A DNA stretch of 64,000 nucleotides, taken from contig NZ_JAIUMR010000001.1 in assembly GCF_022565475.1 (NCBI RefSeq), forward strand, positions 310,001-374,000, written 5' to 3'. The notes below the pieces were generated by a model. The model did not search any database and was not told where the DNA came from. It worked only from the letters and a program-made list of their open reading frames with translations. Positions 2,939 to 13,953 of the stretch are shown here, piece by piece. This stretch comes from Aliidiomarina sp. Lineage in GTDB: Bacteria; Pseudomonadota; Gammaproteobacteria; Enterobacterales; Alteromonadaceae. Position numbers and translations under genes: made by a program. Each line of letters begins with the position of its first letter. Position 1 is the first letter of the stretch.

Positions 2939-3871
2939 TTATTTGACCAACCCGATTTCACGTAATCGCTCCATCAAATAATCATCAGCGGTAATTGGTG
3001 GCCATTTCACCGGATTCTCGTCCGTTACACATTGTGGTAATGCTTCAATCACAACATCTGGATTGAAGTGCAAGAAAAACGGAATTGAATAGCGCGAAAC
3101 TTCGTTAAATGGTGCCGGCGGATTAACCACGCGATGCGTCGTTGACGGCAGAACACCATTAGTTAAACGCTGTAACATATCACCCACGTTACAAATAATC
3201 GCACCTTCCAAAATAGTGACTGGAATCCACTCACCTGATTTCGAAAGCACTTCTAAGCCGGGCTCGCGTGAGCCAATCAACAAGGTAATAACGTTAATGT
3301 CTTCGTGCGCTGCTGCACGCACCGATGGTGTTCCTTTATCAACGATTGGCGGATAATGCAGTGGACGTAAAATTGAATTGCCTTTATTCACACGCGTGCG
3401 GAAGTAGTCACGCGGTTGACCTAAGTACACCGCAATCCCTTCTAATACTTGATTACCTAGTTCATCGAGTGCAGCGAAAAGTTCGGTCGTCGTTGTTTTG
3501 AACGACGGTAGCTCTTGCGGCCATACGTTAGGCACCAAACCTGGGTAGTCCGTATCATTATCAACTTCACGACCGACATGCCAAAACTCTTTTAAGTCAA
3601 CATGCTTGGCATCTTTCGCGATCTCAGTACCGAACGGGGTGTAACCACGAGCACCACCTAAGCCCGGCTTGTGATATTGCTTTTTCACTTGCTCGGGTAA
3701 ATCGAAAAGCTCGCGAGTCGCGTCAAGGGCGCGGTGAATTGTCTCACTCGGGATGCCATGATTGGTTAATGCGACAAAACCATTCACCTCATAACCTTCA
3801 CCGATGGTTTGAACAAACTTAGCAAAGTCGGACTGAAATACCGACATGTCAACATGTGGGATTGATTGCAT
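2939..3871 (-). CDS. 2-oxoglutarate/Fe(II)-dependent oxygenase, isopenicillin N synthase-like
   Basis: 310 residues from the ATG at 3871; an in-frame TTG two codons earlier is less likely because an AGG site sits about 9 bases before the ATG. The N-terminal DIOX_N part contains VALTNHGIPSE. The catalytic jelly roll shows the iron-binding H-x-D in AAHEDINVITLL, the distal histidine in STTHRVVNP, and the arginine beside it that binds 2-oxoglutarate. Members oxidise small molecules using Fe(II), O2 and 2-oxoglutarate. The substrate cannot be read from the sequence; the thioesterase directly downstream suggests an acyl or lipid-like substrate, but this is speculative. Confidence 0.85.
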   Translation of the reverse strand: MQSIPHVDMSVFQSDFAKFVQTIGEGYEVNGFVALTNHGIPSETIHRALDATRELFDLPEQVKKQYHKPGLGGARGYTPFGTEIAKDAKHVDLKEFWHVGREVDNDTDYPGLVPNVWPQELPSFKTTTTELFAALDELGNQVLEGIAVYLGQPRDYFRTRVNKGNSILRPLHYPPIVDKGTPSVRAAAHEDINVITLLIGSREPGLEVLSKSGEWIPVTILEGAIICNVGDMLQRLTNGVLPSTTHRVVNPPAPFNEVSRYSIPFFLHFNPDVVIEALPQCVTDENPVKWPPITADDYLMERLREIGLVK

Positions 3872-4040
3872 GAACAAGTGCCTAATAAATAATCAATTAA
3901 AAACCTGACGAATCTGTTAATACTTTGTAACATATTCATCAATGAAGTTAATCGGATTTTACCACAGATTCGTTTAGTATCACGAATAGCAGTCGTGTTT
4001 TTACGCCTCGCTTTTCCGCATCAACAACAGGAAAATAATA

Positions 4041-7000
4041 ATGACTAGAAATACCAGCCAGAAATTAAAGCTGAGCTTAGTCGCCGGAGCTGTGCTCTCG
4101 GTGGTCTCAGTGAGCGTTTTCGCCAGTGGGTTTGAGCAAATTCAACCACGTGATGGTTTTAATGCCACCGAAGTCGTGTCACCTATGGTCGACAAAGAGA
4201 AGAGCCTTCGTACGCTTGAATTTGCTGAGGCAAATTACCTAATTATCGAGTTAGAGCATCAACCGGTCGCTACCTATCGCGGCGGTATTGAAGGTTATGC
4301 AGCGACTGCACCCCGTGCAGGCATGAGCCCGAGTGAAATTGTTAGCTCCGCAGCAGCTGCAAGCTACCAACAGTTTCTTCAAAGCGAGCAAGCCGCGTTT
4401 GTCAGCCAACTCTCGAATGTGCTGCCGGGTGTAAGTTTTGTTCAAGGCTTTCAAGGCCTGACGAACTCCGTTGTTGTCGAAGCGCCTAATTCTGCAAAAG
4501 CGCGCGCTGAGATCGCCCGCATGCCAGGCGTTAAGCGCGTGTTTCAAAATGAGCGTTTCTTCGCTCAAATGGATGCATCGAATAGCTTGATCAACTCGCA
4601 AGCTGCATGGGATATGGTTGGTAGTCGCGCTGAAGCCGGCAAAGGTGTCCGTGTTGCAGTCATCGATAGCGGTATTCTTCCTAATCATCCAATGTTCGCC
4701 GGTAACGGCTTCAGCGCTCCAGATTCACTGCCCGGTAACGATTACTGTGCCACAACTGAGCCAGAATTTTGTAACGACAAGTTAATTGTCGCCCGCAGTT
4801 TCCCTCCTGCGAATACTGGGACTTTGCATCCGCAAGAAACCGTCACGCCACATGATTTAAGCGGCCACGGTACCCACGTTGCCGGTACGAGTTCAGGAAA
4901 CTTAGTCAGCACCACCCATGAAGGTGTTGCCTTAAGCTTTTCCGGGGTTGCTCCGGGCTCTTATGTCATGGCCTACAAAGCACTATTCGTCGGTACCGAT
5001 GGTCGTGCCACTGGCTTTAGTAATCAGCTTGCAGCCGCACTTGAAGCCGCTTTCTTTGATGGCGCGGACGTCATTAACAACTCTTGGGGTGGCGGTGCTG
5101 GGACACATCCTTCAGCGAGCCCTTACCCACCGATTTTTGAAGCCTTAGAAAGTTTAAATGTTGTGGTGGTAACGTCTGCCGGTAACTCAGGTCCGGGTGA
5201 TAAAACCATCGGCTGTCCTGCCTGTGCCGAATCCGGCATTGCAGTTGCAAATACGCAAACTGGCCGTACATTTGGCGCACCATTCCGTGCATCTGGCATT
5301 GAAGTCAATGCCGCGATTGCAAGTGGTGATTTTAACCTCGACGAACCCATTTCTGGCCCGTGGATGCCTGTTTCTGAAGCATTAACCGAAGAGTCAGAAG
5401 GCGATGTCCTCGCCTGTTCAGACTTCGGCGATGAAACCTTGTTCGATGGCCATATTGTCATGGTTCAACGTGGTGAATGTTCATTCATAGACAAAGCAAC
5501 CAATATTCAAAATGCTGGTGCAATTGGCATGGTTGTCTACAACAACGCAGCCGGTGCCTTTGGTATGGCGATGGAAGGCACAACACTGCCGAGTATTGCC
5601 ATTCCGCAAAGCGCAGGTGAAGCTATGATTGGCGCTTGGTCACAGGGTGACACAGCAACCATGAACCCAGCCCAGCAGCTTATCAATGCGACCAATGTGG
5701 ATATCATGGCAGCCACGAGCTCGCGTGGACCAAACGGTGATGCATCATTCTTGAAGCCAGATGTCGCTGCCCCAGGTACCAATATTTTATCGGCTTACCC
5801 AACGGCCAGTGGTTACGGTGCTATTTCGGGTACCAGTATGGCTAGCCCTCACGTGGCCGGTGCTGCGGCACTACTGCGTCAATTACGTCCGGAACTTGAT
5901 GCCTATCAGATTAAATCCGTACTGATGACCTCAAGTAACCCGAATGTTCGTATGCAAAATGCTCAAGACCTAGCAACACCATTCGCCATGGGTGCGGGTC
6001 GCTTAGACATTGAAGCTGCACTAGGTACTGCCATTGCATTTGACACTGCATCGATTGCATCAACTGCATGTGCACCAACCTGTTCTTTCGATCGCACCAT
6101 CACCAACTTGATGGGTGAAACAACAGAGTGGACCTTCAGCTATGTGCCGTACAATAGCCATACGATGGTTCATTTTGATAACGAAGACGTCATGATTGAT
6201 GCCAATGGAACGGCTGAAATTAATATCGAGATTGACACGACTTATGCCCCTGAAGGTTGGCAGTTCGGTCATATTGTTGCCACCGATCGTGCTGGTCACT
6301 ACGCCACAGCGATTGTACCTTTCGCGGTTCACGCCGTGAAATCTGACAATAGCCAACTCGTGAGCACCTCGGTGACTTCTGGTCCGGTGCAAGCAGGTGA
6401 GAGTGTCACGATTGAATCTCGCGTTAATGGTGAAGACATTGACGGTGCTGTTGAAATTACCGTTGAACTTCCAGATAACGTTTTATTGGTAGCTGACAGC
6501 ATTACTGCCGACGAAGTGAATGCCAGCCGCACGAGTTTAACCGTAGCTGCAGATCAACGTTCATTTACATGGGTCGGTGAAATGCTCGATGGTACTGCTG
6601 CCACAGATCTTAGCGCAGCGAACCTACCATCGAACCTCAACGGTCGTTCATTGACAGAGATTTTATCAAGTCCTCCGCAATCATTCGGTTGCTCGGAAGG
6701 TTGTGATGATGAACGTCTTACACTGACCGTCAGTGGCGTTGGCGGATTTAACTATAATGGCGTGAACTATGATCAGGTCCAGATTAGTCCGAACGGCTTC
6801 CTGAATGCTGGTGATCAAAGCCACAATGGTTCTTTCCAACCACAAACCATGCCGGATAGCACACCACCGAATAACGTGCTGGCACCTCTCTGGGCTGATT
6901 TTGCCTTAGGTGGCGATCTGGGTGGTGAAATCTACTTTGCTGCCGTCACCATCGGTGGTGATCAGTGGCTGATGGTTGAGTGGAATGAAATTCGTTATTG

Positions 7001-8006
7001 CGAAGGATGGACTGCAGCAACAGGTTGTATCCCAAGTGACGATCACTATACGTTCGCACTGTGGAGCAACATCACGACCGGTGAGCAGTACTTCAACTAT
7101 ATCGACATTCCAAGCACCTTGCCTTCTGAAGCGCGTATCGGCTTCGAAGACGCTGCAGGTACTGTTGGTTTCAACTATACCGGTTCAATCAGCAGCGGTG
7201 ATGTCCGTCAAGTGAGCCTCACTCCGGCTGATTCGTTTGTCAATCTGACCTATCAAGGTACTGCTGGTCTAATGGGTGTTGCGCCAGCGTTAACGGCTGA
7301 GGGCACACCAAATACGCCAGTCACAATCCCTGTTGGTGAAGGGTTTAGCGCGGCTGATGAGCGTGCGTTAGGTCATGTCACGGTTGCCAACGATGGCGTT
7401 GAATACTCTGCATTTGTGCCAGTCTCTGTCGAAGCCGGCGAAAGCTTGAGTGCGGAAGTAGTTGGACAAGCCTCGAGCGGTGTTGCGAGCATCAGCAACG
7501 GTGAGCTAACCTTTACCGGTGCATCTGGCCGCGGCGGTGACTTCACGTTCACCTATCGCTTAGTCGACAGCGCAGGTCGATTCACCATGCCAGGCGAAGT
7601 GACGGTGACCATTGAAAACTCGGCACCGGTTGCAGCTGCATCTGCTTCGGCAACAGCAGCAAGCGCTGGTGACACCGTCAACCTGAGTGCTGCCGGAAGT
7701 TCTGATCCGGATGGCGACCCGTTAACGTACAGCTGGCGTCAAGTAAGCGGTCCAACTGCGGAAATGAACAACACCAGTTCATCGACAGCAAGTTTCATCG
7801 CACCGAAATCAGGCTCTGCTTCGACGTTAGTCTTCGAAGTCACCGTATCAGACGGTTCATTGTCTGACAGCGCACAAGTTTCGGTTGAACTTAACCGCTA
7901 CAGCAGCAAAAAGTGGTACGAAGGAAGTTTCGGCGCACTTGTTGTTTTACTCGGTTTACCACTCGTGTGGTTACGTCGTCGCAAGACGATTAAAATCGCG
8001 TCATAA
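4041..8006 (+). CDS. Secreted S8 subtilisin-like protease with PA, NIDO-like and PKD-like regions and a GlyGly-CTERM-like tail
   Basis: 1321-residue exported serine protease. A Sec signal peptide is followed by cleavage near VFA-SG (residue 28), then an I9-type propeptide at about 60-180. The triad is D209 in VAVIDSG, H276 in GHGTHVAGT and S599 in GTSMASPHVAG. A protease-associated insert occupies about 455-535. A domain at about 860-1053 resembles NIDO domains (VLAPLWADF and similar). A PKD/Ig-like domain (SSDPDGDPLTYSW) lies at about 1193-1286. The C-terminus is a short linker, EGSFG, a hydrophobic helix and RRRK: the architecture of GlyGly-CTERM sorting tails, though without the usual double glycine. 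Those tails are processed by rhombosortase, encoded 1 kb downstream. An AGGAAAA site precedes the ATG. Confidence 0.93.
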   Translation: MTRNTSQKLKLSLVAGAVLSVVSVSVFASGFEQIQPRDGFNATEVVSPMVDKEKSLRTLEFAEANYLIIELEHQPVATYRGGIEGYAATAPRAGMSPSEIVSSAAAASYQQFLQSEQAAFVSQLSNVLPGVSFVQGFQGLTNSVVVEAPNSAKARAEIARMPGVKRVFQNERFFAQMDASNSLINSQAAWDMVGSRAEAGKGVRVAVIDSGILPNHPMFAGNGFSAPDSLPGNDYCATTEPEFCNDKLIVARSFPPANTGTLHPQETVTPHDLSGHGTHVAGTSSGNLVSTTHEGVALSFSGVAPGSYVMAYKALFVGTDGRATGFSNQLAAALEAAFFDGADVINNSWGGGAGTHPSASPYPPIFEALESLNVVVVTSAGNSGPGDKTIGCPACAESGIAVANTQTGRTFGAPFRASGIEVNAAIASGDFNLDEPISGPWMPVSEALTEESEGDVLACSDFGDETLFDGHIVMVQRGECSFIDKATNIQNAGAIGMVVYNNAAGAFGMAMEGTTLPSIAIPQSAGEAMIGAWSQGDTATMNPAQQLINATNVDIMAATSSRGPNGDASFLKPDVAAPGTNILSAYPTASGYGAISGTSMASPHVAGAAALLRQLRPELDAYQIKSVLMTSSNPNVRMQNAQDLATPFAMGAGRLDIEAALGTAIAFDTASIASTACAPTCSFDRTITNLMGETTEWTFSYVPYNSHTMVHFDNEDVMIDANGTAEINIEIDTTYAPEGWQFGHIVATDRAGHYATAIVPFAVHAVKSDNSQLVSTSVTSGPVQAGESVTIESRVNGEDIDGAVEITVELPDNVLLVADSITADEVNASRTSLTVAADQRSFTWVGEMLDGTAATDLSAANLPSNLNGRSLTEILSSPPQSFGCSEGCDDERLTLTVSGVGGFNYNGVNYDQVQISPNGFLNAGDQSHNGSFQPQTMPDSTPPNNVLAPLWADFALGGDLGGEIYFAAVTIGGDQWLMVEWNEIRYCEGWTAATGCIPSDDHYTFALWSNITTGEQYFNYIDIPSTLPSEARIGFEDAAGTVGFNYTGSISSGDVRQVSLTPADSFVNLTYQGTAGLMGVAPALTAEGTPNTPVTIPVGEGFSAADERALGHVTVANDGVEYSAFVPVSVEAGESLSAEVVGQASSGVASISNGELTFTGASGRGGDFTFTYRLVDSAGRFTMPGEVTVTIENSAPVAAASASATAASAGDTVNLSAAGSSDPDGDPLTYSWRQVSGPTAEMNNTSSSTASFIAPKSGSASTLVFEVTVSDGSLSDSAQVSVELNRYSSKKWYEGSFGALVVLLGLPLVWLRRRKTIKIAS

Positions 8007-8032
8007 TCACCGAGTTTAATGTTAAGAACATC

Positions 8033-8060
8033 AAAAGGGGCTTGCGAGCCCCTTTTTTAT
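8033..8060 (+). terminator. Terminator after the subtilisin gene
   Basis: Stem AAAAGGGGCT/AGCCCCTTTT with tetraloop TGCG, ending in six T. It lies between the protease and the first lipoprotein gene, so the lipoproteins depend either on read-through or on a promoter hidden in about 45 bases. Confidence 0.88.
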
Positions 8061-8102
8061 AAACTAAACGATTATGAACACACCGATAAAAGGAAACGTT
8101 CA

Positions 8103-8540
8103 ATGAAAATGAATTCAATGCGTTTATTGATGCCCTTGAGTATGTTAATCGTGCTCGCGGCATGTTCACCAAGTTCCGATGAGCAGGTGATCGAAGTTAC
8201 CGAGAATGACCAACTGAGTGAAACGACCTTGAGTGAGCAAATCAGCGACAAGGCAGCGGAAATATTCCGTTTAGTAGGTAATCCACAAGCCGATCATCCG
8301 AACCAATGTCGAGCCATTGAGTTTGGTCGCAACGCCTGTGGTGGTCCTGCAAGCTGGTTGATCTATTCCACTGCAGTCACCGATGGCGAAACCATCGAAG
8401 CTTTAGTAGGCGAATACAATCAGCTCAGCGAAACCTATCAGCGCACTTTAGGTCAAGTCTCTGACTGTGCTGAGCTGGCCGAAATTCAATTGACAATTCG
8501 TGACGGAATTTGTGTTGGTACTGCACTGTCATATATGTAA
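8103..8540 (+). CDS. Small cysteine-containing lipoprotein, CGGP/WLIYS family, copy 1
   Basis: 145 residues from the ATG at 8103, chosen over an upstream in-frame ATG at 8019 because an AAAAGG site precedes it and it begins a proper lipoprotein signal (LIVLAAC, lipidated Cys21). I do not recognise a named function. The mature part has an acidic linker, then a domain with four cysteines: C in QCRAIEFG, C in NACGGP, C in SDCAEL and C in DGIC. The core reads CGGPASWLIYSTAVTD followed by LVGEYNQLSETY. By hand alignment it shares 31 of 72 core positions with the next gene. Four conserved cysteines suggest two disulfides in the periplasm or at the cell surface. Its position next to an exported protease and a rhombosortase suggests a linked role, which is inference. 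Confidence 0.8.
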   Translation: MKMNSMRLLMPLSMLIVLAACSPSSDEQVIEVTENDQLSETTLSEQISDKAAEIFRLVGNPQADHPNQCRAIEFGRNACGGPASWLIYSTAVTDGETIEALVGEYNQLSETYQRTLGQVSDCAELAEIQLTIRDGICVGTALSYM

Positions 8541-8584
8541 CAGTTTGATTTAGATACGGGTAGAACCGAGATAGGAGTTATTCA

Positions 8585-9082
8585 ATGGCTGTAAAACCGC
8601 TGCAGTTCACCTTCGCTGCATTAAGCGCACTTATATTGTCTGCCTGCGTTGATAGCCAACAACTAGCCGACTATGAAAATGCTCAAACCGATGAAAGCGG
8701 CTATCAGCTGATCGACGTCGCCTTTGTCCAGCACCTCGACCAAATTCTAAACGAAGATCGTGAAGTGGACGCAAGCGATATTGAATTGCTCAATAAAGAG
8801 ATTAACGCTTTAGTCGCCATACCAACGGCGGAGAATGTCCAAGCATGTGCAGTAGTCGGTTATGGCAGCAAACCCTGTGGCGGCCCGAGTCGATGGTTAA
8901 TCTATTCGCGACAAGTCACAGATGACGAGGTATTACTGCCTCTGGTCGAGCGTTATAACCGCCTCACTGAACAGTATAATCAGCAAGAAGGTATGATGTC
9001 CGACTGCGCCATGCTAGAGCCGGTACAGCCACAACTAATTAATGGTGTTTGCGCTGCTGGCTCGCGACACTTATCTGAATAA
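8585..9082 (+). CDS. Small cysteine-containing lipoprotein, CGGP/WLIYS family, copy 2
   Basis: 165 residues, with a TAGGAG ribosome site, 44 bases after copy 1 and surely its tandem paralogue. The signal ends in a lipobox (LILSAC, Cys21). The domain keeps the four cysteines in ACAVVGYG, KPCGGP, SDCAML and NGVC, and the core CGGPSRWLIYSRQVTDDE plus LVERYNRLTEQYN. The region between lipid anchor and domain is longer than in copy 1 and predicted helical (DASDIELLNKEINALV). Function unknown. The last 44 bases overlap the 3' end of the convergent rhombosortase gene. Confidence 0.8.
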   Translation: MAVKPLQFTFAALSALILSACVDSQQLADYENAQTDESGYQLIDVAFVQHLDQILNEDREVDASDIELLNKEINALVAIPTAENVQACAVVGYGSKPCGGPSRWLIYSRQVTDDEVLLPLVERYNRLTEQYNQQEGMMSDCAMLEPVQPQLINGVCAAGSRHLSE

Positions 9083-9629
9083 GTGCGACAGTAATACCAC
9101 TCAGTACCCCATAAAAATGGGCTGCGACCGCAAGTGATTCGGTTGCAGCCTGATTACCCAACGGCCCGAAAAACTGCTCCCAGCTGACTTTGAGCACTAA
9201 ACCGAATAAAAGTAGGTAGCCAAGTTTAATGCGCTGGCGAATGTCATGACACGCTCCCCACGCGAAAATGGCATACAGGACGCCGGAAAAACCAACATAG
9301 TATTGCAGTTCAGGCGCCAGCCAGTACACACCGATACCGGTCAACACGGTGAGGGCTATGACCACGTAAGCATAGCGCCAAGCTGGTGCATGCTCGGCAA
9401 AGAGCAAGAACATCACCCAAATACCAGCCACATTCAACAGCAAATGCCGCCATTCAAAATGCAGTAACTGCCCAGTCATGATCCGCCACCACTGCCCTTC
9501 CGCAATGAGCTCTCGCTGATAACTGAGCGCCTCATGCAGGTTTGCTGGTAACAGATAAAAAAAGACCAGCAGCAATGACATCACTGCTGCTGGTACTAGG
9601 TATTGCCGTTCAAGAGGCAGTTGAATCAC
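9039..9629 (-). CDS. rrtA: Rhombosortase, rhomboid-family intramembrane serine protease
   Basis: 196 residues with about six membrane segments and little else, the size of rhombosortases. Catalytic serine is S115 in GFSGVLYA and catalytic histidine H171 in AHFYGVLSG; the HFEWRHLLLNVAGIW block carries the conserved H and N of the rhomboid oxyanion region. Rhombosortases cleave GlyGly-CTERM tails of exported proteins such as the VesB protease of Vibrio cholerae and help place them on the cell surface or release them. The start is GTG at 9629, immediately after the TAA of the upstream S9 peptidase gene, so the two are translationally coupled. The subtilisin at 4041-8006 is the likely substrate in this window. 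Confidence 0.85.
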   Translation of the reverse strand: MIQLPLERQYLVPAAVMSLLLVFFYLLPANLHEALSYQRELIAEGQWWRIMTGQLLHFEWRHLLLNVAGIWVMFLLFAEHAPAWRYAYVVIALTVLTGIGVYWLAPELQYYVGFSGVLYAIFAWGACHDIRQRIKLGYLLLFGLVLKVSWEQFFGPLGNQAATESLAVAAHFYGVLSGITVALIQISVASQQRKHH

Positions 9630-12083
9630 TTAGTTCTTCTCTGGATACAATGAATCCCACCACTCTGGTTGGTCTTTCAGATGTTTATCAAACCAAGCCA
9701 TGTAGGTTGCCCACCAATGGAAGCGCGCATCGCGACCAATAATGTGGTGATCCTGGCCTTTATATTCGACCAGCTCGACTTCTTTATCCAACAGTTTCAG
9801 TGCCGTGTACATAATGTGACTCTCACCCGGCGGAACGTTGGTATCCGCATCACCGTGAATCAGTAACATTGGCGCAGTCACTTTATCGGCATGAAAGACC
9901 GGGCTTTGTTGCGAATACAAATCCGCGTTGTTCCATGGGAAGCTACCCTTGCTGGCTTCGCCAGAGTACAAGAAGCCCCACCAACCGTGTCCCCAGTAGG
10001 ACGTAATATTCGAAATACCAGCATGGGACATTGAGGCCGAGAAGATATCCGTCATCGTCGCCAACAACATGGTCATAAAGCCACCGTAAGAAGCACCTAA
10101 ATGGCCCACACGGTCAGCGTCAACAAAAGGATGCGCAGCAAGAAACTCTTGCGTGCCTTGAATAATGTCTTCGGCCGTGTATTCACCCCAGGCATTAACG
10201 TGCCGCGCCGAGAACTCTTGGCCATAACCAATAGCGCCGGTCGGCTGTAACACATACACCACGTACCCCTGATGAGCCCATAGATTAAACGGGTAACGAC
10301 CAGTAAAGCCACGTTGAACCGGTGTTGTGCCGCCATAATAGTAAACTAACGCTGGGTAGGTCTGTTCAGGGTCAAAGTTATGCGGATAATACACTCGGCC
10401 GTGAATTTCATCACCGTGACGATTGGTAAAGTTCCACTCTTCAACCGGTGCGATACGATTCGCAGTATAGGCGACATCAGCACTGTCCCACAGGGTTTGT
10501 AAGCGCCCTTCCTGCAAGTCTAAGCTCACCACTTTTTGCGGGGTCGTTGCGCCACTGCCGGCAATCACCAATTTTGGCAATGCTGACTGATTGTAAGTCA
10601 CGTTCGAGACAACTTCGATATCCGTGCTGACTCGCATAAAACGTGACGTACGCGGATCAAAACGATAGAGCTGGGTGCCATCACGTTCTGTTACGCGCAA
10701 CAATAATTGCTGATTTCCCAGCACTGCAACACTACTAATCGCTGGATCAAACTCTCGACTCAACGCAGTGACCTGCTGATTTGCATCGAGACGATAGAGC
10801 TGACCATCATAGTTATTGGTTAACAAGTCTTCCGCAAGACGAGGATCACGACCGGCGTTATCGGCAAATTCAGGGCCGGCAACAATATAGATGCCCTCTT
10901 CACCGTAGACCGCTTGGTTAAATGTCCGATGGGTACCCAGATCACGCGTTTCGCCGGAAGCGACGTCGACTTCGAACAACTGCACAGCAAAATGCGGTGG
11001 CGCAGCATAATCGACGAGACGGCTGCTGACTAACAATCGGTCGCCATCGCGATGCGTATCCGCAAGGCTGTGGCCAGAACCACCAAAGGTATGCTGCTGA
11101 ACCAGTCCACTGTCGATATTAACCGTATTTTGCGTTACATTGCGGAAACTCGACCAACGATCTTCAAGAGCTTGAAAACGTTTACTGAGACCAGAGTCAC
11201 TCTCCGCTGTTTTCGTCCAGTTGAAGACTAAACGGCTGTCGTCTAACCAACGTAAACCAGACATGCCGCGTTGTTCTGCAGTCACCGTGGTGACCGACAG
11301 GTCCGTCAAATCTAAAATTTCAATTTTGTTGCCACTAATATAAGCAACTTGAGAAGCACTTGGGTGCCAAGCAAACTGCCCTGCGTTCGCGTTTTGCCAA
11401 CGATAGACGATGCGATTCTCGCTCAGATCTTTAATCACTAATTCATTCTGAGCACTATTACCGGTCGTCGGTGAATAGGCGCTTTCCCGCCAGACCAGAT
11501 AACGACCGTCCGCCGACAAGTCGATTGAACTCACCGTTGGCGCATCGAACATCGACTGTTCACTCAAACGCCAATGCTCCGGCCATTGCGTCGCAACCGT
11601 GTCATGTTCGGCTTTACCTTGCCAGTTCAGAGTCAGTGCTGACCAATCCTCAACACCTTCAACTAAAATAATCAGCTTGTGATCACCAGTTTGCAAATTC
11701 ACGTCAACACTATGCTTACCGCTGGCGATGCGACTGCCATTGAGATACACAGAGGTGTGGCTTGCACCTGACACTTCGATGCTGCCACGGGTGAAACGAT
11801 CGACACTGAGCGGCAATCTTAAAACACTGCTCTCGCCGCTGATGCTATCCGCTAACGAGGTATCGGATGCATTAAAATCAGCTAACCAAGGACGCACAGC
11901 GCTATCGCGTAACGCATCGGCTTGATCCGAGTCACTGCTAGTGATTCTCACGGGATGGACACGAACATCCTGTTTGGCAATTTCTATTTCCGCGGCTGAT
12001 ACTGATGCTGCGCTAAAGAGACCCGTCGCGGCCAAAGCAATAGCGACGCCTCGCAATGAAAACTGTGAACCTAAAATTCGCAT
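9630..12083 (-). CDS. Exported S9 family prolyl-oligopeptidase-like peptidase
   Basis: 817 residues: Sec signal peptide (residues 1 to about 30, ending SVSAAE), a beta-propeller of WD-like blades at about 190-540 and a C-terminal alpha/beta hydrolase. Nucleophile serine is S665 in GASYGGFMT, the acid lies in HGDADTNVP and the histidine in GQDHHIIG. This is the S9C/DPP-like layout: the propeller restricts access to short peptides. About 110 residues between the signal and the propeller (LTNWQG-type beta strands) look like an extra jelly-roll domain. An AAGGG site precedes the ATG. It is followed without a gap by rrtA. No GlyGly-CTERM tail is visible at its own C-terminus. Confidence 0.88.
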   Translation of the reverse strand: MRILGSQFSLRGVAIALAATGLFSAASVSAAEIEIAKQDVRVHPVRITSSDSDQADALRDSAVRPWLADFNASDTSLADSISGESSVLRLPLSVDRFTRGSIEVSGASHTSVYLNGSRIASGKHSVDVNLQTGDHKLIILVEGVEDWSALTLNWQGKAEHDTVATQWPEHWRLSEQSMFDAPTVSSIDLSADGRYLVWRESAYSPTTGNSAQNELVIKDLSENRIVYRWQNANAGQFAWHPSASQVAYISGNKIEILDLTDLSVTTVTAEQRGMSGLRWLDDSRLVFNWTKTAESDSGLSKRFQALEDRWSSFRNVTQNTVNIDSGLVQQHTFGGSGHSLADTHRDGDRLLVSSRLVDYAAPPHFAVQLFEVDVASGETRDLGTHRTFNQAVYGEEGIYIVAGPEFADNAGRDPRLAEDLLTNNYDGQLYRLDANQQVTALSREFDPAISSVAVLGNQQLLLRVTERDGTQLYRFDPRTSRFMRVSTDIEVVSNVTYNQSALPKLVIAGSGATTPQKVVSLDLQEGRLQTLWDSADVAYTANRIAPVEEWNFTNRHGDEIHGRVYYPHNFDPEQTYPALVYYYGGTTPVQRGFTGRYPFNLWAHQGYVVYVLQPTGAIGYGQEFSARHVNAWGEYTAEDIIQGTQEFLAAHPFVDADRVGHLGASYGGFMTMLLATMTDIFSASMSHAGISNITSYWGHGWWGFLYSGEASKGSFPWNNADLYSQQSPVFHADKVTAPMLLIHGDADTNVPPGESHIMYTALKLLDKEVELVEYKGQDHHIIGRDARFHWWATYMAWFDKHLKDQPEWWDSLYPEKN

Positions 12084-12396
12084 AGGAAACCCTTGTTGAC
12101 GTTCTTATCATTAAAATCTAAAGCTTATCTTACACATTTCCGTTGAAATCGGCAGTTTTCGTCCACAAGAATGCGATAAAACTCGTAGCAAACACGATTA
12201 TTTTGAGAAAAAAGAAATCTGATCGCAAATTCGCGTCTGACAAGGCTACCGATCACGGCTTGAAGGATGTATGCTAAATGCGATTTTTGTTCGAGTTCTA
12301 GGCAAAATGACGCTGAAGCTGCCATTTTAACTAGAGATTTATTCGAACTCACACCGAAAACACAACAAAAACAGTGGTTAACCACGGGGACTCATT
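12084..12396. other. Divergent intergenic region between S9 peptidase and abgT-like gene
   Basis: 313 bases without a supported gene. It must hold the promoters of both flanking genes. A TTGACG hexamer at 12096-12101 points right but has only a poor -10 at the right distance. A 12-bp palindrome lies at its right end. An 86-codon leftward open frame here has no family features and I do not believe it. Confidence 0.6.
12374..12385. promoter_or_regulatory. 12-bp perfect palindrome next to the ribosome site of the AbgT gene
   Basis: GTGGTTAACCAC, ending directly before the GGGGA ribosome site. It could be an operator or a small hairpin over the start; no known binding-site family is matched. Confidence 0.35.
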
Positions 12397-13953
12397 ATGA
12401 GCGCTGACAAGCAAGTCAAGGATACAGAAAACGGTCTGCTCAACCGTTTCCTCAATAAAATCGAAGTGATCGGCAATAAACTCCCTGATCCAGCCGTCAT
12501 GTTTGCTGGATTATTAGTGATTGTCTGGGCACTGAGCTTATTGTTCGCCCAATTTAGTTATAGTGAAATCGACCCGCGAACAGGTACCGAGATTGTCGTT
12601 AATAACCTACTCGCACCCGCCGCCCTCGCGAACTTCCTCGCCACCATGGTTACAACATTCACGTCATTTGCGCCGTTAGGTGTCGTGCTTGTTGCTATGC
12701 TAGGTATTGGTGTGGCAGAGCGCAGTGGTTTTATTAACGTTGGCATTAAGTTGCTATTGAACAACACAGCGAAATTCTTGCTCACGCCAATTTTGATCTT
12801 AGTGGCAATTGTCAGCCATACCGCAGTTGATGCTGGCTACGTTCTCGTTATTCCGCTTGGTGGTATTATCTTCTATGCCGCTGGTCGTCACCCTCTTGCG
12901 GGTATCGCCGCAGCGTTTGCCGGTGTGTCAGGTGGTTTCTCCGCAAACTTTGTACCCAGTGCGATCGACCCGATGTTGCAAGGGATTACCCAAGAAGCGG
13001 CACGCTTATACGACTCAACGATTCTGCTCAACCCACTGAACAACTGGTACTTTACCGCTGCGTCGAGCATTGTCGTGGTATTAGTCGGTTGGTACTTAAC
13101 TGATAAAATCATTGAGCCACGGCTGCAAGGCACCCAAGTTGACGGTGACCCTGAAGAAATGCCAAAAATCGAAGAAGTTTCTGCCAAAGACCGCAAAGCC
13201 TTTACCGCCGGTGGCCTAACCATGCTTGCAGGTATTGTTGCACTCGTGGTCATGACCTTGCCAGAAACCTCAGCGCTGCGTTCACCTGAGGGTGAAATCG
13301 CTGCATTTGATGCACCACTGATGCAGTCGATTGTACCGATTATCTTCTTGTTGTTCTGGGTACCTGGCATTGTTCACGGCTATGTCGCTGGAACCTTTAC
13401 TGAGTCCAAAGACGTCATCATGGCAATGTCGAAAACCATGGAAACCATGGCTTACTACCTGGTCATGGCCTTCTTCTGTGCGCTCTTTATCAAGGCATTT
13501 GGTGACTCGAATCTCGGCATTCTACTGGCCATGAAAGGCGCGAACTTCCTGCAAGCGATGGCTGTTCCAGGCCCGGTGACCTTGGTGGGTATCATTATGT
13601 TGGTTGCGATTATTAACCTATTCGTTGGCTCTGCCAGCGCAAAATGGTTACTGATTTCTCCAATTTTCGTACCTATGCTGATGCAGCTCGGTATCTCACC
13701 TGACCTGACTCAGGCGGCCTACCGTGTTGGTGATTCGGTGAGTAACATCATTACGCCGTTATTGCCTTACTTCCCACTCGTTGTGGTTTACTGTCAACGC
13801 TATGTGAAGAGCACAGGTATCGGTACATTAGTTTCGATGATGCTGCCATACAGTGTCGCCTTGGGTATTATTTGGACCATCTTCTTGTTGCTCTACTGGA
13901 TGATCGGAATCCCACTCGGTGTCCAAGCCAACTATATTTACCCAGCTGGTTAA
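12397..13953 (+). CDS. AbgT family transporter (MtrF/AbgT-like)
   Basis: 518 residues, inner membrane, with about a dozen hydrophobic segments including paired re-entrant hairpins. Family blocks are KLPDPAVMF near the N-terminus, SHTAVDAGYVLVIPLGG, the AGVSGGFSANFVPSAIDP turn and GSASAKWLLISPIFVPML near the end. The AbgT family includes the E. coli p-aminobenzoyl-glutamate importer and the MtrF-type proteins reported to export sulfonamides. Which activity applies cannot be told from sequence. No abgA/abgB hydrolase genes adjoin it, but an M20 peptidase follows. A strong terminator closes the unit. Confidence 0.9.
   Translation: MSADKQVKDTENGLLNRFLNKIEVIGNKLPDPAVMFAGLLVIVWALSLLFAQFSYSEIDPRTGTEIVVNNLLAPAALANFLATMVTTFTSFAPLGVVLVAMLGIGVAERSGFINVGIKLLLNNTAKFLLTPILILVAIVSHTAVDAGYVLVIPLGGIIFYAAGRHPLAGIAAAFAGVSGGFSANFVPSAIDPMLQGITQEAARLYDSTILLNPLNNWYFTAASSIVVVLVGWYLTDKIIEPRLQGTQVDGDPEEMPKIEEVSAKDRKAFTAGGLTMLAGIVALVVMTLPETSALRSPEGEIAAFDAPLMQSIVPIIFLLFWVPGIVHGYVAGTFTESKDVIMAMSKTMETMAYYLVMAFFCALFIKAFGDSNLGILLAMKGANFLQAMAVPGPVTLVGIIMLVAIINLFVGSASAKWLLISPIFVPMLMQLGISPDLTQAAYRVGDSVSNIITPLLPYFPLVVVYCQRYVKSTGIGTLVSMMLPYSVALGIIWTIFLLLYWMIGIPLGVQANYIYPAG

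Follow-up and report, generated by a model that had tools for sequence, protein, structure and literature searches.

The gene of a small lipoprotein with a conserved CGGP motif goes with the gene of an exported subtilisin, and not with the rhombosortase gene that lies close by, as judged from gene order. That the subtilisin and the lipoprotein form a functional pair is considered probable. The reading of the pair preferred here, with somewhat less than even confidence, is that of a two-gene unit in which the lipoprotein would be an outer-membrane guard that restrains the subtilisin during export. Secreted proteases must stay harmless until they are out of the cell, and few species have been studied to the point where the handling of surface-sorted (GlyGly-CTERM) proteases is understood. 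A compact two-gene unit, also borne on a plasmid of a laboratory strain, makes the role of the partner directly testable, and the pairing offers a clue to the function of a lipoprotein family that is unnamed and occurs in several phyla.

The window is a stretch of 64,000 nucleotides from a draft genome of Aliidiomarina sp. (2.73 Mb, 95.6% complete); genomes are labelled G and loci L, each with a number, and the window W. The features of the window discussed below are as follows.

4041..8006, plus strand: S8 subtilisin of 1321 aa, with a signal sequence (by eye), prodomain, S8 catalytic domain with a PA insert, PKD-like domain and GlyGly-CTERM tail
4233..4550, plus strand: prodomain, I9-like by position, with an AlphaFold order b-a-b-b-a-b at low confidence
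4638..5999, plus strand: PF00082 catalytic domain, residues 200-653, with the PA insert at 457-528
7923..7985, plus strand: GlyGly-CTERM tail (EGSFG, hydrophobic helix, RRRK), with no Gly-Gly pair
8033..8060, plus strand: terminator-like hairpin with a T-run, AAAAGGGGCTTGCGAGCCCCTTTT, between the subtilisin and lipoprotein 1
8103..8540, plus strand: lipoprotein 1 of the CGGP family, with four invariant Cys in the mature domain
8585..9082, plus strand: lipoprotein 2, a paralogue, with a confident AlphaFold model for about residues 50-160
9039..9629, minus strand: rhombosortase (TIGR03902)
9630..12083, minus strand: S9 peptidase

Every feature named in a first-pass annotation of the window was recovered in its place, but that annotation missed the hairpin at 8033-8060, the likely start of lipoprotein 1 at 8103 and the tail-to-tail overlap of the lipoprotein 2 and rhombosortase genes at 9039-9082. 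The start of lipoprotein 1 is probably at 8103 and not at 8019, where the longest ORF begins, as suggested by the ribosome-binding site and lipobox seen by eye.

Profile searches assign the subtilisin to PF00082 (E 4.1e-46) and identify its PA and PKD-like domains, with catalytic motifs at residues 205, 275 and 597. The AlphaFold model of the prodomain has a mean pLDDT of 49.8, and only the order of its elements is usable; PF05922 is not over cut-off in the window subtilisin, and is over cut-off only in the homologues at L107 and L163. The tail, EGSFGALVVLLGLPLVWLRRRK, is the sole TIGR03501 match in this 95.6% complete genome, and at 15.7 bits against a cut-off of 15.5 the match is marginal. 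The tails are alike in all 21 lipoprotein-linked subtilisin loci given.

The rhomboid at 9039..9629, called a rhombosortase in the first-pass annotation, is one by its family score (153.8 bits on TIGR03902 against a cut-off of 84), and carries the dyad motifs GFSG at 113 and AHFYG at 170. That a rhombosortase lies near a GlyGly-CTERM subtilisin has precedent (Haft and Varghese 2011, PMC3237569), and such close pairing is expected given a single TIGR03501 match in the genome and only two genes between the tail and the rhombosortase. The suggestion that the subtilisin is a substrate of this rhombosortase is plausible. For VesB, the part of PMC6219818 that was consulted describes cleavage of the tail, a new end containing glycerophosphoethanolamine and type II secretion. 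By analogy, the window subtilisin may be handled in the same manner, and the type II secretin GspD is present in the genome (TIGR02517, 541.7 against 351.35 bits). The genome encodes two TIGR03902 proteins over cut-off, the second of which (G000:C7:94615-95022; L176:9571-10203) scores 107.5 bits and has a second S9-like gene nearby, as judged by eye; a genome-wide TIGR03501 search found no second GlyGly-CTERM match to go with it.

The two lipoproteins of the window, which are paralogues, are 35% identical. Both have a lipobox with its Cys and no Asp at +2, and neither matches a Pfam or NCBIfam family over cut-off. Among 23 sequences of the genus, including these two, no variation occurs in the lipobox Cys, in four Cys of the mature domain or in CGG, and the Pro that follows is nearly invariant. 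A simple lipobox pattern finds 55 of 64 family rows, none with Asp at +2; among the nine rows that it misses, two from Bacteroidota (L128, L134) read Cys-Asp. With 30 sequences as input, AlphaFold models lipoprotein 2 at a mean pLDDT of 83.7, with values above 90 in 106 of 165 residues, and predicts a domain of the order helix-strand-strand-helix-strand-strand. None of 67 Foldseek matches in the PDB reaches E <= 0.001 (best E 0.86), and a profile search among solved structures gave no match (best E 1). Thirty members were also compared with Pfam and NCBIfam. Here, no strong match to a known protease inhibitor family was found, one member giving a weak match to a plant cystatin-related family (E 0.037), and PF18492, the ORF2 family, gave no match at E <= 0.1. 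Only one member has a strong match, to a META domain (E 1.3e-13), and the next best is to LppK, in two members (E 0.00095); a longer member of 273 aa, L132:2999-3820, is probably the bearer of the META domain, ahead of its CGGP domain. No match to the lipoprotein was found in phages. Wider relatives, at 37 loci, come from Rheinheimera, Flavobacteriaceae, Algoriphagus, Marinimicrobia, Krumholzibacteriia and Pseudobacteriovorax. Word searches of the open-licence literature found no paper on the family. Proteases that come with an accessory gene are familiar; this accessory family and its pairing with proteases look new.

Gene order was compared in 17 genomes of the genus and 26 of a second genus, and the adjacency figures are raw counts with no chance rate, in which related loci are not independent events. 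All 17 genomes of the genus carry the lipoprotein family, and all 17 have a TIGR03902 protein over cut-off. The lipoprotein gene lies directly downstream of the subtilisin gene at 12 loci in 11 of these genomes, one of which (G004) has two such loci. The subtilisin occurs at 17 loci in the genus, and five of them have no lipoprotein beside the enzyme, namely second copies in G007, G012, G014 and G016, and the one in G013; nor was the lipoprotein found beside the subtilisin at homologue loci of other genera (L160-L165). Thus, the lipoprotein is not needed by all such enzymes. At six further loci (L166-L170, L172) the enzymes were missed by the motif, and searches of those genomes for the lipoprotein turned up nothing in their vicinity.

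In the second genus, the lipoprotein is found in 23 of 26 genomes and the subtilisin also in 23, and 21 of the 23 lipoprotein genes are downstream of the subtilisin on the same strand. The spacing is 17-1023 bases from the end of the aligned part of the subtilisin, and -20 to 96 bases from gene to gene in the loci that were read. As for the remaining lipoprotein genes, in G162 the subtilisin is split over contig ends and the lipoprotein is beside the tail piece, whereas G172 has no such subtilisin and encodes its lipoprotein next to an ORF2-family gene and a kexin-type subtilase. The lipoprotein is missing from three genomes, which are 77-88% complete; one of these has a subtilisin.

The mere presence of a rhombosortase does not speak for a link to the lipoprotein. 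In a scan of 147 genomes of the bacterial family, in which up to 25 candidates per genome were scored and absences are only that sure, TIGR03902 is over cut-off in 144 and the lipoprotein occurs in 28, all of them among the 144. Since the rhombosortase is nearly universal, co-occurrence by presence is uninformative and lends no weight to a link with rrtA. More can be learnt from the order of the genes. The first-pass annotation had placed the lipoproteins and the S9 peptidase, as anchors, inhibitors or foldases, in a maturation module centred on the rhombosortase. In the window, all of the parts do lie within 8 kb, and the S9 gene adjoins the rhombosortase gene in 10 of the 17 genus genomes, where only lipoprotein neighbourhoods were judged. 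However, among the places listed, there is no rhombosortase near the pair in four genomes of the second genus (G041, G084, G116, G144), and no relative of the window rhombosortase was found in the neighbourhoods of L140-L143, about 10 kb on each side. The plasmid described below has no annotated rhombosortase in bases 1-49000 of 64,758, nor is it one of the six plasmids that match the window rhombosortase. The association of the lipoproteins with a protease stands, by adjacency in two genera, at different places on the chromosome, and on a plasmid. Their place in a rhombosortase module is not supported, as the subtilisin gene is followed by that of the lipoprotein whether or not a rhombosortase is close, and such a module is regarded as very improbable.

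The S9 peptidase (PF00326, E 1.6e-44; signal sequence by eye) scores below cut-off as Dpp5 (NF053518, 159.2 against 900 bits). Its stop codon abuts the GTG start of the rhombosortase gene (9630/9629), an arrangement that fits the co-transcription proposed for the two genes but does not demonstrate it. One genome, G001, keeps the lipoprotein and S9 genes at the old place, with the subtilisin and rhombosortase absent at the locus, and the S9 gene was not found in the stretches fetched around the G004 and G014 pairs. Because the S9 gene persists in G001, the peptidase is probably outside the subtilisin-lipoprotein unit, and its assignment to a rhombosortase module is likewise undermined. On its other side are a transporter of the AbgT type (PF03806) and an M20-like peptidase, the latter by eye (window:12397-15244), and such neighbours fit peptide use. 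The genes around the pair are conserved across much of the genus, and the subtilisin, S9 peptidase, transporter and M20-like peptidase could accordingly be read as a nutrient cluster for peptide use in which the lipoproteins are passive. This reading is rather improbable, given that the pair occurs elsewhere without these genes, although a nutrient role in itself is compatible with a guard.

The space between the lipoprotein and rhombosortase genes is occupied differently at other loci of the genus. A small 2OG-Fe(II) oxygenase gene lies there at six loci (L034:9858-10541, L038:9728-10426, L042:8756-9454, L043:9961-10653, L044:5041-5784 and L046:10023-10760), with PF13640 in the two that were scanned; the L038 copy overlaps the lipoprotein stop codon. 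In G007, genes of the RND efflux type are inserted (L037:9818-14298), with ACR_tran in the one scanned. In G013, the lipoprotein, 2OG oxygenase, rhombosortase and S9 genes are together and the subtilisin homologue is elsewhere.

Members of the lipoprotein family are also found beside other proteases. In G005 and G006, the lipoprotein gene diverges from that of a neighbouring kexin-type subtilase (PF00082 and P_proprotein), which has behind it a small gene that belongs, in G005, to the ORF2 family. In all, kexin-type subtilases with a small downstream gene are encoded beside a CGGP lipoprotein at L185:6248-9633, L035:5845-9616 and L036:8825-12379; for L185 and L035, the small gene is confirmed to be of the ORF2 family. 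In G009 and G011, the lipoprotein is near a protein with the motif HExxHxxxxxH, for which G009 gives weak, sub-cut-off metallopeptidase matches; in G011, an acyltransferase-like gene (by eye) stands between the two. At L039:1477-9966 and L041:2023-9599, the CGGP lipoprotein has near it a large lipoprotein-like protein that bears HELGHNFS(V/L)GH and is accompanied by a small lipoprotein-like gene. Outside Idiomarinaceae, no subtilase was seen to adjoin the lipoprotein in the loci read by eye, and the family members of Rheinheimera, Bacteroidota and Marinimicrobia have other neighbours. The gene prlC, named by eye, is next to or near a CGGP lipoprotein at L144-L146, L150, L152-L154 and L156, and in Rheinheimera at L109-L111, L119, L120 and L126; in L154 and L156 the lipoprotein gene overlaps the end of prlC. 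The nearness of prlC in Rheinheimera and its kin is taken as coincidence.

The pair is also plasmid-borne. A tblastn search of 72,556 plasmid records with lipoprotein 2 returned a single match (E 5e-5, 29% identity), on pMEGA of Pseudoalteromonas translucida TAC125, and the L034 lipoprotein as query found the same single record. According to the annotation, the gene of a 1322-residue subtilisin with a GlyGly-CTERM-like tail is followed after 122 bases by the start of the partner gene (both at L194:28415-32865), and the product of the partner gene keeps the four Cys but has lost the lipobox Cys and CGGP. The portions seen of two papers record the protease, as a subtilisin-like protease named in the genome paper (PMC6848147) and as an S8 protease in a table of the pMEGA curing paper (PMC11858219), which describes the cured strain KrPL2; in the term-searched text of both, where the protease is present, the partner gene is not mentioned.

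In a tree of 37 subtilisin rows, the 23 that are lipoprotein-linked fall within one clade of 24 (SH-aLRT 99). The lone unlinked row of the clade, G016b, is the sister of the plasmid copy, and two changes explain all. The tree was built by a quick method, with the long-branched L175 and L169 dropped and an upstream tandem copy in G144 scored as linked. As the lipoprotein was what led to the inclusion of most linked rows, the genome counts are the fairer measure. The lipoprotein and subtilisin trees agree on the groups W+G002+G010+G015 (for lipoprotein 1), G003+G004a, G007+G016 and G084+G144, with other forks unresolved. From a separate analysis of the lipoproteins, one long-branched member (L149, 7550) was dropped. 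Distances for the two proteins are correlated (r 0.711, reached in 0 of 9,999 permutations, with 17 of 21 pairs, four being lost because the motif missed their subtilisins), and species relatedness explains part of this correlation; nearest relatives agree in only 6 of 10 loci of the genus. For the subtilisin and the lipoprotein alike, G003 forms a group with one of the two copies in G004, and the second G004 copy and the plasmid speak for joint movement of the pair.

Between the two genes of the pair, a hairpin followed by T's, often of the form GGGGC...GCCCC, occurs in 14 of the 16 gaps given (the window and 15 loci, in stretches chosen by the author and with no shuffled control); by the criterion used, it is absent from L045 and L141. 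A consensus scan lists the 8033..8060 site as terminator-like on the minus strand only, and finds no promoter-like site between the subtilisin and lipoprotein 1 genes. Over 3700-12500, the scan gives eight terminator-like and eight promoter-like sites, not above the shuffle means of 10.1 and 10.5. In L046 and L140, about 20-30 bases separate the hairpin from the lipoprotein start. As this leaves no room for a promoter behind the hairpin, and none was found in the window gap, transcripts must read through there, and such read-through, to go by the sequence, would be expected to lower the dose of the lipoprotein. At seven loci of the second genus (L142, L186, L188-L192), the genes are less than 20 bases apart or overlap; a hairpin cannot fit there, and is thus not a feature of every pair.

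A lower dose would suit a chaperone or secretion adaptor that acts repeatedly, of which little is needed, and that aids folding of the subtilisin or hands it to the type II system. Membrane chaperones of the CpaB type, which serve type II substrates, are a precedent. So is the position of the gene directly downstream of that of the protease, like ORF2 of the Aeromonas protease ASP in the part of PMC5638518 consulted. Such a role is nonetheless judged unlikely: the subtilisin seems to have its own prodomain, an ORF2-family gene is confirmed as well at two of the three loci with a kexin-type subtilase beside the lipoprotein, homologous subtilisins occur without the lipoprotein, and the seven loci with closely set or overlapping genes leave no room for the hairpin from which the lower dose is argued.

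The role preferred for the lipoprotein is that of a guard, or inhibitor, at the outer membrane; a chaperone or secretion adaptor ranks next, and a tether last. The lipoprotein, having a lipobox and no Asp at +2, would sit in the outer membrane and extend outward on an acidic linker, with its cysteine-bearing domain binding the subtilisin en route to the surface. Binding would restrain stray subtilisin activity in the periplasm or at the membrane, and the terminator-like hairpin, here and in many relatives, may hold the dose of the lipoprotein below that of the enzyme. A guard is favoured over a foldase because of the apparent prodomain of the subtilisin and because family members also adjoin kexin-type subtilases that have an ORF2-family gene; that the lipoprotein persists alone is a further point in its favour. 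Conversely, a lower dose would suit a one-to-one inhibitor badly, some subtilisins manage without the lipoprotein, and the metalloprotease-like neighbours in G009 and G011 count against a guard. The explanation is weakened further by the persistence of the lipoprotein in G001 and G013 with no such subtilisin adjacent, by the other neighbours of the wider family, and by the loss of the lipobox Cys and CGGP in the plasmid partner, and its hairpin element by the seven loci with no room for one.

The lipobox and linker, together with the expected location of the subtilisin at the surface, could also be accounted for by a tether or receptor that holds the processed protease, or a released form, at the cell surface. 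A tether appears very unlikely, since rhombosortase processing is reported, in the part of PMC6219818 consulted, to give VesB a lipid-type anchor, and since the plasmid homologue has lost its lipobox. Returning to the guard, a broader proposal would be that CGGP lipoproteins are outer-membrane guards in marine gammaproteobacteria that have been paired repeatedly with different exported proteases (GlyGly-CTERM subtilisins, kexin-type subtilases with ORF2 and perhaps metalloproteases), with the dose set in Aliidiomarina by a hairpin within the operon. This proposal is speculative and has, in our estimation, a modest chance of being correct.

Protease inhibitor genes are found beside protease genes in systems such as AprI/Inh, in which, as here, the gene of a secreted protease accompanies that of a small exported protein; for the lipoprotein, however, matches to inhibitor families and to PDB folds are only weak and at chance level. 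Aeromonas sobria ASP and ORF2, its chaperone and inhibitor in the part of PMC5638518 consulted, are likewise a secreted subtilase and the product of an accessory gene directly downstream, but the lipoprotein has no PF18492 match and lies beside a kexin-type subtilase at three loci, with the ORF2-family gene itself confirmed at two. The rhombosortase/GlyGly-CTERM pairs (PMC3237569; VesB, PMC6219818) share with the window a TIGR03902 rhomboid, a tripartite tail and a substrate gene close by, and differ in that the window has two lipoprotein genes in between, EGSFG in place of Gly-Gly and a second TIGR03902 protein in the genome. Of the known systems, the pMEGA subtilisin of Pseudoalteromonas TAC125 (in the parts seen of PMC6848147 and PMC11858219) differs from the window pair in a partner without the lipobox Cys and CGGP, but belongs to the same clade and has a gene of the same family downstream.
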